Assembly (NCBI RefSeq): GCF_000966975.1
Contig: NZ_JZWV01000177.1
Span: 1-20,832 of the forward strand
Origin: Streptomyces katrae
GTDB taxonomy: Bacteria; Actinomycetota; Actinomycetes; Streptomycetales; Streptomycetaceae
Reading direction: 5' to 3'
Length of the DNA stretch: 20,832 bases
Shown here: piece after piece, positions 2,383 to 4,366 of the stretch
Layout of the letters: the number at the start of each line of letters is the position of its first letter
Numbering within the stretch: the first letter of the stretch is position 1
The notes under the pieces: model-generated
Told to the model about the DNA's origin: nothing
Databases searched by the model: none
Seen by the model: the letters and a program-made list of their open reading frames with translations, nothing else
Translations under genes and position numbers: made by a program

Positions 2383-3246
2383 TCAGAGGACGCGGACGGC
2401 GCCCGTCGGCATGTCGTAGCTCAGCGGGCGCTCGACGATGCCCGTGCTGGGGTTCTGCGCGCCGACGAACTTGCCGCCGCCGACGTAGATGGCGACGTGG
2501 TAGGCGCTGCCCTTGGGGCCCCAGTACAGGATGTCGCCCGGCTGGAGGTTGCTCAGCGAGACCGAGGTGCCGGCCAGGGACTGGTCCTGGGAGGTGCGGT
2601 CCAGGGAGATGCCCGCCTGGCGGTAGGCGGCCTGCACGAGGCCCGAGCAGTCGTACGCGGAGGGGCCGGTGGCACCCATCACGTACGCCTTGCCGACCTG
2701 GGCGTAGGCGAAGTTGACGATGGCCGCGGCCGAACCGGTGGCCGAGGAGCGGCCGCTGCTGGAGGAACCGCCGGTGACGGCGGCACCGCTGCCGTCGTCG
2801 GAGGCGGAGGCGTTGGTCAGGGAGGAGCGGCCGGAGCTGCGGTTGGCACGCTCGGCGTCGGCCTTGCGGTCGGCCTCCTGCTTCGCCTTCTGCTCGGCGG
2901 CCTTCTGGGCGTCTTCCTTCGCCTGCTTCGCCTCGGCGGCGGCACCCGTACGGGCGCTCTCCTCCTGGGCGTTCAGCTCGCCGGTGACGGCGGCCTCGAC
3001 GGCGGCGACGCGGGTGTTCTCGGCGGCCGTGTTGACCGCGTTGGAGACCTCGGTGCCGAGGTCCAGGCTGAGGACCGGCATCTCCAGCGTCGTCTCGGCC
3101 ACGGGCTCGGTAGACGGGGACGCGCTCGCGGTGCCGGCCATGGCCAGGGTGCTGAGGACGCCACCGGCAACTCCGGCGCGGACCGCGAGCTTCGAGGCGC
3201 TGCGGCGGGGCTTCCGGTGGCTGGGTATGTGAGCGGTGTGGGACAT
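2383..3246 (-). CDS. Secreted NlpC/P60 family peptidoglycan hydrolase
   Basis: This is a 287-residue exported cell-wall hydrolase. The basic N-terminus and hydrophobic core (about residues 10-42: RKPRRSASKLAVRAG, then VAGGVLSTLAMAGTASA) form a signal peptide with likely cleavage after ASA. Residues 70-135 are rich in Ala, Glu and Lys and probably coiled coil. A Ser/Gly linker (136-172) follows. The NlpC/P60 domain covers about 174-287, with catalytic Cys200 in AYDCSGL and His250 in AYHVAIYV; the third polar residue is probably Gln264 or Asn265 in AQNPSTG, not the more common His. Family members are gamma-D-glutamyl-meso-diaminopimelyl type endopeptidases. Start ATG 3246 gives a full signal peptide, but its ribosome binding site is weak. 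The gene diverges from nuoA across a long regulatory region, and its transcript probably has a structured leader. It matches the position I recall for SCO4561. Confidence 0.92.
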   Translation of the reverse strand: MSHTAHIPSHRKPRRSASKLAVRAGVAGGVLSTLAMAGTASASPSTEPVAETTLEMPVLSLDLGTEVSNAVNTAAENTRVAAVEAAVTGELNAQEESARTGAAAEAKQAKEDAQKAAEQKAKQEADRKADAERANRSSGRSSLTNASASDDGSGAAVTGGSSSSGRSSATGSAAAIVNFAYAQVGKAYVMGATGPSAYDCSGLVQAAYRQAGISLDRTSQDQSLAGTSVSLSNLQPGDILYWGPKGSAYHVAIYVGGGKFVGAQNPSTGIVERPLSYDMPTGAVRVL

Positions 3247-3365
3247 GGGACAACCGCTATCAGGGGTGCAGGGTCACCTTCAAGAAACGTGGTCTGCGCC
3301 ACAGTTGCGGGAAAAGCCGGGTAACCGGGCGCGCCGCGCCCCTTATTGACGCCGTAACGGACAGA

Positions 3366-3417
3366 TCGGACACCCCTTCGCAAGGCTGTGATCATGGGGT
3401 TTCAGCAATAAGTCCGA
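3366..3417 (-). other. Predicted structured leader of the NlpC/P60 mRNA
   Basis: Within the 175-nt leader predicted for the minus-strand hydrolase transcript, TCGGAC and ACCCC (minus strand, 3417-3412 and 3400-3396) both pair with one continuous 3' arm GGGGTGTCCGA (3376-3366). This leaves an 11-nt asymmetric bulge (3411-3401) and a 19-nt loop. An alternative hairpin, CCTT/AAGG (3375-3385 region), competes for two of the paired bases. A second hairpin, GGGCGC-ggc-GCGCCC, lies at 3341-3327. It does not match the ydaO (c-di-AMP) riboswitch consensus. Seen: the complementarity. Inferred: that it is an RNA element. Confidence 0.3.
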
Positions 3418-3427
3418 ATTGATCCAC

Positions 3428-3457
3428 CGCCTACCATCCACCCGCACAGATGGCCAA
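3428..3457 (-). promoter_or_regulatory. Candidate promoter for the NlpC/P60 gene
   Basis: On the minus strand, TTGGCC (3457-3452) is followed after 18 nt by TAGGCG (3433-3428), close to the streptomycete TTGACN/TAGGRT vegetative pattern. The predicted start is near 3421, giving a leader of about 175 nt. The Crp-type site at 3485-3498 would then be centred about 70 bp upstream, a normal class I activator position. Confidence 0.35.
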
Positions 3458-3484
3458 GCCTCCTTTTTGCGGGCCATGATCGAT

Positions 3485-3500
3485 GTGTCGCAGGTCACAG
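3485..3500. promoter_or_regulatory. Crp-type operator upstream of the NlpC/P60 gene
   Basis: GTGTCGCAGGTCAC (3485-3498) fits the streptomycete Crp consensus GTG-N6-GNCAC exactly. The 16-mer 3485-3500 differs by one base from a second copy at 3902-3917 upstream of nuoA. It overlaps the inverted repeat CAGGT-N7-ACCTG (3491-3507). Seen: the motif match. Known: the Crp consensus in S. coelicolor. Inferred: binding. Confidence 0.55.
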
Positions 3501-3510
3501 TTACCTGCCG

Positions 3511-3598
3511 CCGTGAGGGCGCTGTGGCCGGTCCGTGATCCGACCGTGAACTCGCCGTGCGCTTACCGCGCCCTCGCCGTGCGGTTCCCGTGCGGTCC
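3511..3598. repeat. Eight tandem 11-bp units with a CCGTG core (phased operator-like array)
   Basis: Units start at 3511, 3522, 3533, 3544, 3555, 3566, 3577 and 3588. Six begin with CCGTG exactly; the others are CTGTG (3522) and CCGCG (3566). The last six bases vary, apart from related pairs such as the units at 3577 and 3588 (CCGTGCGGTTC and CCGTGCGGTCC). An 11-bp period is about one helical turn, so all cores face the same side of the DNA. On the minus strand the core reads CACGG, and units such as GTTCACGGTCG resemble the 11-bp direct repeats bound by OmpR-family regulators such as PhoP. The array lies in noncoding DNA between the two divergent promoters. Confidence 0.75.
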
Positions 3599-3730
3599 GC
3601 CGCGGGCCGGGGTGCTCGTGAACGCGTGCACATCCTTCCGGCGCCGGATCCGGCGTCCACTTCCGTACCGCCGGGCCCCCCGGGCGGGGGAAGCCGATTC
3701 CTTTATCACTCCGGTCGCCCAGCCGCCAAT

Positions 3731-3758
3731 TTGCCTGTAGCGGCCAGTCTTTGATAGT
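3731..3758 (+). promoter_or_regulatory. Candidate distal promoter for the nuo operon
   Basis: TTGCCT (3731-3736) and GATAGT (3753-3758) are separated by 16 nt, each matching four of six bases of the vegetative consensus. They lie in the locally AT-rich stretch 3699-3760. Transcription would start near 3765 and leave a leader of about 240 nt before nuoA. Confidence 0.3.
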
Positions 3759-3802
3759 GCAAGCCCGCCTCTACCTGCGGTAACGCGGCCGGATGTCACG
3801 TT

Positions 3803-3840
3803 TGGTGATCATGTGGATGCCTTGCGTACGAAGATCACCA
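3803..3840. promoter_or_regulatory. TGGTGATC / GATCACCA inverted repeat upstream of nuoA
   Basis: The 8-bp perfect arms TGGTGATC (3803-3810) and GATCACCA (3833-3840) flank a 22-nt spacer. Both arms contain the GATCAC hexamer that recurs in this intergenic region. It could be an operator or an RNA stem if transcription starts at the distal promoter. Confidence 0.35.
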
Positions 3841-3868
3841 CTCATCGGGCTTCATGATCGTTCGTCAG

Positions 3869-3882
3869 GTGGTGGAGATCAC
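3869..3882. promoter_or_regulatory. Crp-like GTG-N8-CAC site, distal copy upstream of nuoA
   Basis: GTGGTGGAGATCAC has the GTG-N8-CAC geometry of Crp operators and is followed by A, giving the half-site TCACA. It departs from the streptomycete GTG-N6-GNCAC form only at the internal G. It lies exactly 33 bp from the next site at 3902 and shares AGATCACA with it. Confidence 0.4.
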
Positions 3883-3901
3883 AAACTCGGTGTTGTTACC
3901 C

Positions 3902-3917
3902 GTGTCGCAGATCACAG
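3902..3917. promoter_or_regulatory. Crp-like GTG-N8-CAC site, proximal copy upstream of nuoA
   Basis: GTGTCGCAGATCACAG matches the site at 3485-3500 at 15 of 16 positions; the single difference is A for G at position 10. Two nearly identical operators at opposite ends of the same divergent region suggest one regulator acts on both the hydrolase and the nuo operon. Confidence 0.5.
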
Positions 3918-3928
3918 ACCGCCAGGCA

Positions 3929-3934
3929 TAAGAT
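3929..3934 (+). promoter_or_regulatory. Candidate proximal -10 element for nuoA
   Basis: TAAGAT resembles the streptomycete -10 element and would start transcription near 3941, so the Rex operator at 3951-3966 would cover the initially transcribed region. No convincing -35 hexamer is visible 16-18 nt upstream, which would suit an activator-dependent promoter. The assignment is tentative. Confidence 0.25.
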
Positions 3935-3950
3935 GCGCACCAGTCTGGCT

Positions 3951-3966
3951 TGTGAACTGCCTCACA
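3951..3966. promoter_or_regulatory. Rex operator (ROP) upstream of nuoA
   Basis: TGTGAACTGCCTCACA matches the Rex operator TGTGAACNNNTTCACA at all but one defined position. Rex is the NADH/NAD+ sensing repressor of actinobacterial respiratory genes. From memory, the nuo operon is among its reported targets in S. coelicolor. The site ends 40 bp before the nuoA start codon. High NADH would release Rex and raise complex I expression. Confidence 0.8.
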
Positions 3967-4006
3967 TGCGACCAACGGTCAAGGACGACTGGAAGGAGCG
4001 AGGAGC

Positions 4007-4366
4007 GTGAATGCCTACGCACCCATCCTCGTGCTCGGCGCCATCGGCGCAGGGTTTGCGATCTTCTCCGTGGTCATGGCCACGCTGATCGGCCCAAAAC
4101 GGTACAACCGGGCGAAGCTTGAAGCGTACGAGTGCGGCATCGAGCCCACCCCGATGCCCGCCGGCGGCGGTCGCTTCCCCATCAAGTACTACCTCACGGC
4201 GATGCTCTTCATCGTCTTCGACATCGAGATCGTCTTCCTCTACCCCTGGGCCGTCACCTTCGACTCCCTGGGGATCTTCGGGCTCGTCGAGATGCTGCTC
4301 TTCGTGCTCACCGTCTTCGTCGCCTACGCATACGTCTGGCGCCGCGGCGGCCTGGAATGGGACTGA
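4007..4366 (+). CDS. nuoA: NADH-quinone oxidoreductase subunit A
   Basis: A 119-residue membrane subunit of complex I, homologous to mitochondrial ND3. It has three transmembrane segments (about residues 6-28, 62-82 and 88-111). The loop between the first two carries KLEAYECG (37-44), whose Cys43 corresponds to the loop Cys near the quinone cavity. The conserved stretch from RFPIKYYLTAMLFI to FDIEIVFLYPWA (56-82) contains the buried acids Asp72 and Glu74. The GTG start at 4007 is preceded by GGAAGGAG (3991-3998) at 8 nt. It is the first gene of the operon; a 15-nt gap separates it from nuoB. Its control region holds Rex and Crp-like sites. Confidence 0.97.
   Translation: MNAYAPILVLGAIGAGFAIFSVVMATLIGPKRYNRAKLEAYECGIEPTPMPAGGGRFPIKYYLTAMLFIVFDIEIVFLYPWAVTFDSLGIFGLVEMLLFVLTVFVAYAYVWRRGGLEWD

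Follow-up and report, generated by a model that had tools for sequence, protein, structure and literature searches.

What could a run of eight short direct repeats, set 11 bp apart, be doing between a cell-wall hydrolase gene and the complex I operon of Streptomyces katrae? In the window, the whole stretch of 20,832 nucleotides analysed here, the nlpC/P60 hydrolase gene lies on the minus strand at 2383–3246 (Pfam NLPC_P60, 4e-23) and nuoA, which opens the complex I operon, on the plus strand at 4007–4366 (Pfam Oxidored_q4, 4.2e-36). The array between them occupies 3511–3598, its units starting at 3511, 3522, 3533, 3544, 3555, 3566, 3577 and 3588. The core is CCGTG in six of the eight units, CTGTG at 3522 and CCGCG at 3566, so that 38 of the 40 core letters (the array score) agree with CCGTG repeated every 11 bp. 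The original prediction of eight units at 11-bp steps, six of them exact, was therefore borne out in both positions and cores.

That prediction had also called the register improbable by chance, and the shuffle control agreed, with 0/1000 in every shuffle set. When the 760-bp intergenic region was subjected to 1000 dinucleotide shuffles, the highest score of CCGTG at period 11 was 26, short of 38, and any five-letter motif at any period from 6 to 30 reached at most 30 in the same 1000 shuffles. Shuffling only the local 140 bp around the array 1000 times, with any motif and periods of 6–18 allowed, also never gave the array score. The array is real and chance is excluded.

Among the eight units the core is 90% identical whereas the 6-bp spacer is only 32% identical. 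Core and spacer of a simple minisatellite should be equally alike between units, which is not what is seen here, and the difference argues against plain slippage. Tandem Repeats Finder (TRF) made a single call at the array, with a 22-bp period (3543–3592). Units 4–5 agree with units 6–7 at 17 of 22 letters and unit 7 agrees with unit 8 at 10 of 11. Units 1–4 (3511–3554), which read CCGTGAGGGCG CTGTGGCCGGT CCGTGATCCGA CCGTGAACTCG on the plus strand, form the conserved, putative operator core and are assigned to the minus strand because they keep a constant position with respect to the nlpC promoter; units 5–8 (3555–3598, minus strand) appear to be an in-phase extension.

Sites flanking the array

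The comparison was built on 80 nuoA loci from named genomes, 79 of which have the fixed site that we call anchor 1, and on 60 loci from two genome searches (anchor 1 in 60/60), together with pattern matches. The 171 loci obtained in all were reduced to 148 with an anchor-1-like place, 127 unique ones and finally 123, after removal of four pattern matches that were not nuo loci; locus L035 is without anchor 1. A clear anchor 2 is missing in 10 of the 123 loci, leaving 113 in which the length of the slot between the two anchors is defined.

Anchor 1 is a palindrome, GTGTCGCAGGTCAC, at 3485–3498 (no strand assigned). It is a putative Crp site that matches GTGN6GNCAC, given as the Crp consensus (PMC10033298), in this strain and in 123/123 nuo loci. 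Anchor 2, TCGTGAACGCGTGCACA at 3616–3632 (no strand assigned), is a putative Rex-type operator: 14/14 of its core letters equal the reverse complement of the operator core footprinted at the rex promoter of S. avermitilis (PMC5355995). Near nuoA lies TTGTGAACTGCCTCACAT (3950–3967, no strand assigned), the counterpart of the S. avermitilis nuoA1 operator, whose footprinted sequence is TTGTGACCTGCTTCACAT (PMC5355995). As the published footprint corresponds to 3950–3967, anchor 2 would be a second, distal Rex-type site. Two Rex-type operators thus precede nuo (3616–3632 and 3950–3967), of which the proximal one alone corresponds to the published nuoA1 footprint. A second Crp-like site, GTGTCGCAGATCAC (GTG-N8-CAC), is present at 3902–3915, ∼90 bp upstream of nuoA. 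The conserved TTTGATAGTG on the plus strand (3750–3759) may be the −10 element of a distal nuo promoter.

On the other side, the sequence suggests a minus-strand nlpC promoter at 3428–3457, with TTGGCC at 3457–3452, TAGGCG at 3433–3428 and a spacer of 18, from which we predict a transcription start near 3421. This would place anchor 1 at about −70. The array lies 265–352 bp from the nlpC start codon. Its original placement 90–178 bp upstream of the hydrolase start is thus wrong for the start codon and right only for the predicted transcription start. The sequence GGCCAAGCC (3452–3460) is 24–25 bp from anchor 1 in the 123 loci in which it was found, and the distance from the nlpC start to anchor 1 is 237–241 bp in 123/123 loci. 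For a leader and promoter region, the DNA between the nlpC start codon and anchor 1 (3247–3484) is thus unusually rigid, and it has no Rfam family at the gathering threshold. An RNA element was considered and rejected: Rfam gave no match at gathering over the window, and two sub-threshold matches (E 1.2 and 4.9) in 3200–4020.

Conservation of the array in related genomes

Runs of at least two exact CYGTG units were found in 31/123 nuo loci, and runs of at least three in 26/123. All 31 begin at offset 12 or 23 after anchor 1, out of 22 offsets tried, and so share one register. The 26 loci with at least three units fall in a single 28-row clade of the 120-row nuoAB tree (support 99/90), and the remaining two rows of this clade have two exact units each. 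Outside it, two exact units occur in L015 and L027. The original prediction had proposed looking for the 11-bp register in relatives, and it is indeed conserved in the 28-row clade, at the same offset from the Crp-like palindrome.

Units 1–4 align without gaps across the 28 clade rows. On these rows, Fitch counting placed 34 changes in the 20 columns of the core and 117 in the 24 columns of the spacer (p 0.00055), and information content also separated core from spacer in 29 loci (permutation p 0.0001). The GTG of units 2, 3 and 4 is present in 28/28 rows each, so that these nine columns have zero changes where the spacer columns average 4.9. Unit 1 is less conserved, with GTG in 12/28 rows. 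GTGA is found in 26/28 rows at unit 3 and 28/28 at unit 4, and unit 3 reads GTGAC in 19/28. Over all 20 core columns there were 1.7 changes per column compared with 1.06 for nuoA third codon positions, the excess coming mostly from unit 1 and the Y position. The array has what is expected of an operator of the OmpR/PhoB direct-repeat type, namely two or more direct repeats at 10–11 bp with a conserved core and a freer spacer.

Five units are present in L143, the nearest relative, where those beyond the fifth have no counterpart; L024 has eight units of its own type. The core is therefore old and the length young. Comparison of the aligned sequences shows that units 1–4 go back to the ancestor of the clade and have been maintained by selection, most strongly units 2–4. 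Units beyond the fourth or fifth appear lineage-specific, and units 5–8 of this strain look like in-phase duplications that arose in its lineage.

An elastic slot between two anchor sites

The slot between the anchors (3499–3615, no strand assigned) is 117 bp long here and ranges from 9 to 281 bp in 113/123 loci. Against the 237–241 bp of the nlpC side, this makes the hydrolase side rigid and the slot the elastic part. Slot lengths cluster at 9, 19, 29–33, 40–45, 52–59, 63–68 and 73–78 bp and are then blurred (113/123 loci). For 43 representatives with slots of at most 110 bp (one per tree cluster and length), the best period was 11.6 and 0/2000 jittered sets scored as high. The same was true of 37 representatives outside the array clade (at most 110 bp), where the best period was 11.3, with nR2 of 11.2 at period 11 and 6.4 at period 10.5. 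No length quantization was seen in slots longer than 110 bp, and none at ∼11 bp among 16 representatives of the array clade (best period 13.0, p 0.05). An independent-pair test (55 pairs, 28 differences of 4–80 bp) gave p 0.0014 at period 11 and 0.058 for the best of all periods; with differences of up to 40 bp or up to 300 bp, p was 0.36 and 0.33, respectively. Its support for quantization is suggestive only.

Sequence periodicity within the slot was examined with pooled lag spectra (115 slots, possibly including up to two of the four non-nuo loci). In 75 slots of at least 60 bp, lags 11, 22, 33 and 44 had z values of 20, 12, 7.5 and 6.7, and outside the array clade lag 11 had z 10.4 (47 slots), all inflated by relatedness. 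Among slots outside the clade, the lag-11 signal was weak at 28–60 bp (z 1.8, 30 slots) and stronger at 61–110 bp (z 6.1, 20 slots). The flanks gave large values as well, with z 9.8 at lag 11 and 28 at lag 9 towards nlpC and z 17 at lag 33 towards nuo. This inflation, the weak signal of short slots and the pair test all speak against the elastic-slot reading, although the series 11, 22, 33, 44 was seen in the slot alone. A motif-free lag scan found 11-bp arrays of other sequences in the slot. L006 and L007 have CYGAGATCTC types, which are shorter in L039 and L077, and still other types are present in L004, L027 and L056. The slot of L136 has 13-bp repeats, CCGTGAGGGGCAG, in place of 11-bp ones.

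One tentative and unlikely explanation is that the slot is elastic throughout the genus: whole 11-bp cells would be gained and lost, lineages would refill the slot with unrelated arrays, and the number and phase of cells would be selected and read by an oligomerising protein of loose sequence preference. If so, copy number would be an evolvable gain knob for a divergent pair of cell-wall and respiration promoters.

Two rival explanations were also weighed. Unit sequence might be secondary, with selection holding the Crp-like site and the Rex operator a whole number of turns apart so that regulators could make contact across the slot. This agrees with the quantization of slot length outside the array clade and with the rigid nlpC side, as well as with the gap from the distal Rex site (3616) to TTTGATAGTG (3759), which has modes at 112–114 bp (33/83 loci) and 121–125 bp (22/83 loci), ∼11 bp apart, when related loci are counted. 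We nevertheless consider it very improbable. The best period is 11.3–11.6 and not 10.5. Being closer to the length of a unit, it speaks for 11-bp cells that are added or lost more than for phasing of the two anchors, and seven steps of 11 to 11.5 bp would already put the phase out by a third to two thirds of a turn. The lack of periodicity in slots above 110 bp, and among the 16 array-clade representatives, also counts against it. Alternatively, the array could be a neutral minisatellite of 11-bp slippage products in a permissive spacer, read by no protein. The duplication-like unit pairs (4–5 with 6–7, and 7 with 8) fit this, as does the wider genome. In intergenic samples of three clade genomes, lag 11 was the most frequent best lag once multiples of three were set aside, with 19 places compared with 10 for lag 5, 9 for lag 10 and 8 for lag 13. 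The lag-11 places carry unrelated units, and five were found in three other genomes, one of these belonging to another family. By genome, the 400-kb samples gave 8, 6 and 5 such places inside the clade, as against 2, 0 and 3 outside it; genes were called with a crude composition model that leaves some coding DNA, and segments with N were excluded. A first control count had given 29 lag-11 places, one of them a masked run. There may thus be an 11-bp mutational tendency in the clade that supplies raw material for arrays, making part of the signal mutational. Neutrality is hard to reconcile with the nine unchanged GTG columns of units 2–4 on the 28-row tree, beside a spacer average of 4.9 changes, and we regard it as unlikely; it applies better to units 5–8 than to units 1–4.

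Similar arrays elsewhere

Degenerate, unrelated 11-bp tandem arrays occur in other intergenic regions of the clade (L180, L178, L202, L289 and others). A genome-wide excess, as from a repeat family or regulon, was rejected: the strict four-unit pattern was found in 35/295 genomes and its reversed control, by hand count, in 37.

In the strain's own genome, the clade pattern with at most two mismatches was found at four places, compared with one for the reversed control. Two of the four are at this array, one is elsewhere and one, the only other place within one mismatch, precedes a PASTA-domain protein gene. At this last place (L296, 1501–1529, minus strand) there is a perfect GTCACAG-N4-GTCACAG pair, with 11-bp spacing, 27 bp before the gene. 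Genome G083 (L311) has a similar stretch, equally far upstream of an ORF, but the product of this ORF gave no PASTA match.

Nine further array loci were chosen by eye from 29 pattern loci in other genomes. Some of these non-nuo arrays recur, seemingly at one promoter in two genomes each, which we treat as a lead. In two other Streptomyces (L097, 1512–1549; L100, 1501–1538), CTGTG arrays at 11 bp precede genes for LAETG surface proteins of the sortase type, the proteins being above the NCBIfam cut-off for L097 and just below it for L100. These arrays are followed by a GTGAC-type palindrome, GTGACCGGGGTCAC or GTGAGCGGGATCAC, an architecture like that of the nlpC array at another cell-surface gene. 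CYGTG arrays are also found in L101 and L110 (1501–1538 in both), in a divergent region with genes for an AMP-binding enzyme and a solute-binding protein; GAGGTTAGGCAAACCTAA, which follows the L110 array, resembles an iron box. The array in L084 is near a PAS-domain sensor gene, and L092, compared at the DNA level, is nearly the same DNA.

Which protein may read the array

The array probably serves as a landing site for a signalling protein. Each 11-bp unit would seat a single protomer and, with the protomers arranged head to tail, several dimers would line up along one face of the helix. The fixed distance from the Crp-like site, itself at about −70 of the predicted nlpC start, makes nlpC, and hence cell-wall turnover, the most likely target; nuo, the divergent operon on the far side of the distal Rex operator, would perhaps be co-controlled.

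Candidate consensus sequences were scored in 28 array blocks and compared with 3000 random intergenic windows from three clade genomes. On the clade mean, 1.5% of random windows were as good for the S. coelicolor MtrA consensus, 1.9% for the mycobacterial MtrA repeat, 4.7% for AfsQ1 and 5.5% for PhoP. The S. coelicolor consensus is given as KTRACC-N5-GTKAC (PMC5650626), and the clade blocks average 9.8/11 against it; this strain scores 9/11, which is reached by 4% of 56-bp and 9% of 92-bp random windows. The corresponding values in this strain were 2.7% for the mycobacterial repeat and 13% for AfsQ1. Array blocks matched Crp worse than random windows did, and Rex half-sites were near background (clade median reached by 39% of windows), so that arrays of Crp or Rex half-sites were rejected. 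For the GlnR consensus, the clade median was reached by 7% of windows.

The strain's own genome encodes MtrA (NF040689, 394.7 bits, curated cut-off 300). GTNAC, in the pair form common to MtrA and AfsQ1 sites, stands exactly 11 bp after the GTCAC of anchor 1 in 44/123 loci and in 15/28 of the clade, and is absent in this strain. Other offsets within 40 bp had at most 5 loci, except for offset 36 (20 loci), which is unit 3. A 2026 account of the MtrA half-site has T1 and C4 conserved (PMC13189361); if these are the T and C of TNAC, a mapping of our own, both are present in only 3/8 units. The nlpC gene of C. glutamicum is reported to be under GlxR (a Crp relative), MtrA and EsrR (PMC9960051). 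MtrA was placed first because it is the most distinctive match clade-wide, because of the C. glutamicum nlpC sites and because of the pair before the PASTA-domain gene. It is not the sole candidate, since SCO4561, the S. coelicolor counterpart, is reported to be lower when the response regulator SCO5785 is overproduced (PMC3276577). A literature survey, made mostly from titles and abstract openings, turned up no account that places MtrA at the Streptomyces nlpC or nuo genes. The array itself was absent from titles and abstract openings in the literature on its candidate regulators and repeats, a set with subscription papers mostly outside it.

The other regulator with a claim on this strain is PhoP, for which the minus strand of the array would be a complex PHO box, its best units being GTTCACGG and GATCACGG. 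The original prediction had dismissed PhoP on its 22-letter consensus, and the match is indeed ordinary (15/22, reached by 35% of random intergenic windows). The dismissal does not extend to the 7-letter PHO unit: for GTTCACC-N4-GTTCACC this strain scores 11/14, reached by only 0.6% of 56-bp and 1.2% of 92-bp intergenic windows. PHO units are described as 11 nt long and variable in number and sequence (PMC6988585, PMC4415409), and a proteomics study invokes activation by PhoP for part of the respiratory proteins, although it saw no more than a slight rise of complex I when phosphate was limiting (PMC8981147). Across the clade, however, the GTTCACC pair averages 10.2 of 14, with G replacing C after CAC, and the 5.5% of random windows that equal it compare poorly with the 1.5% for MtrA. 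Going by these matches, PhoP fits better than MtrA in this strain alone, while MtrA is the best match clade-wide; a PhoP operator seems improbable.

The original proposal of a larger-than-usual OmpR-family operator stays the best reading, its register being conserved and its shuffle controls negative, although it is predicted from sequence. The proposal did not include the lack of conservation of units 5–8, the Crp-like and Rex-type sites on either side of the slot or the ∼11-bp steps in slot length. In its fuller form we hold it to be somewhat better than an even prospect: an extended tandem direct-repeat operator for a response regulator of the OmpR/PhoB type, with MtrA as the likeliest reader and nlpC as the most likely target. 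Counting against it are the 9/11 MtrA match of this strain and the 3/8 units with both T1 and C4, the units beyond the fifth that L143 lacks, the core columns that on average change more than nuoA third codon positions, the lack of a genome-wide excess and the 11-bp arrays of other sequence elsewhere in the clade.

Comparison with known operators

The closest parallel in form is ArcA of E. coli, which is reported to have 92 sites with three to five 11-bp repeats and 66 with two (PMC3798270). There too, direct repeats are 11 bp from centre to centre and often more numerous than the two of a dimer, and ArcA also binds upstream of nuo (PMC3798270). The two systems differ in repeat number (two to five compared with eight here), sequence and phylum, and the present array is a predicted operator. 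MtrA sites of Streptomyces, Corynebacterium and mycobacteria are described as GTGACC-N5-GT(G/T)AC or GTCACA repeats at ∼11 bp (PMC5650626, PMC13189361), and the C. glutamicum nlpC gene is an MtrA target (PMC9960051). In contrast to the run of up to eight units here, the MtrA sites in these accounts are pairs or two pairs per promoter, and the letters after GTG are weak in this strain's array. PHO boxes share the 11-nt units and their variable number, but the array has GG after CAC instead of C and a weaker match clade-wide. AfsQ1 sites (GTnAC-n6-GTnAC) resemble the form found at the anchor in 44/123 loci and the GTGAC of unit 3 in 19/28 clade rows, but 0/8 units of this strain read GTNAC.

The operator reading is likely, and the elastic slot is the new part. 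Although extended direct-repeat operators of the OmpR type are known, it is seldom possible to see how they arise, grow and turn over. In this case, a single slot followed over 123 loci appears to combine frozen cores, in-phase gain of units and quantized length, beside known control points of complex I (Rex). It would offer a natural copy-number series for asking how the length of an array sets the response.
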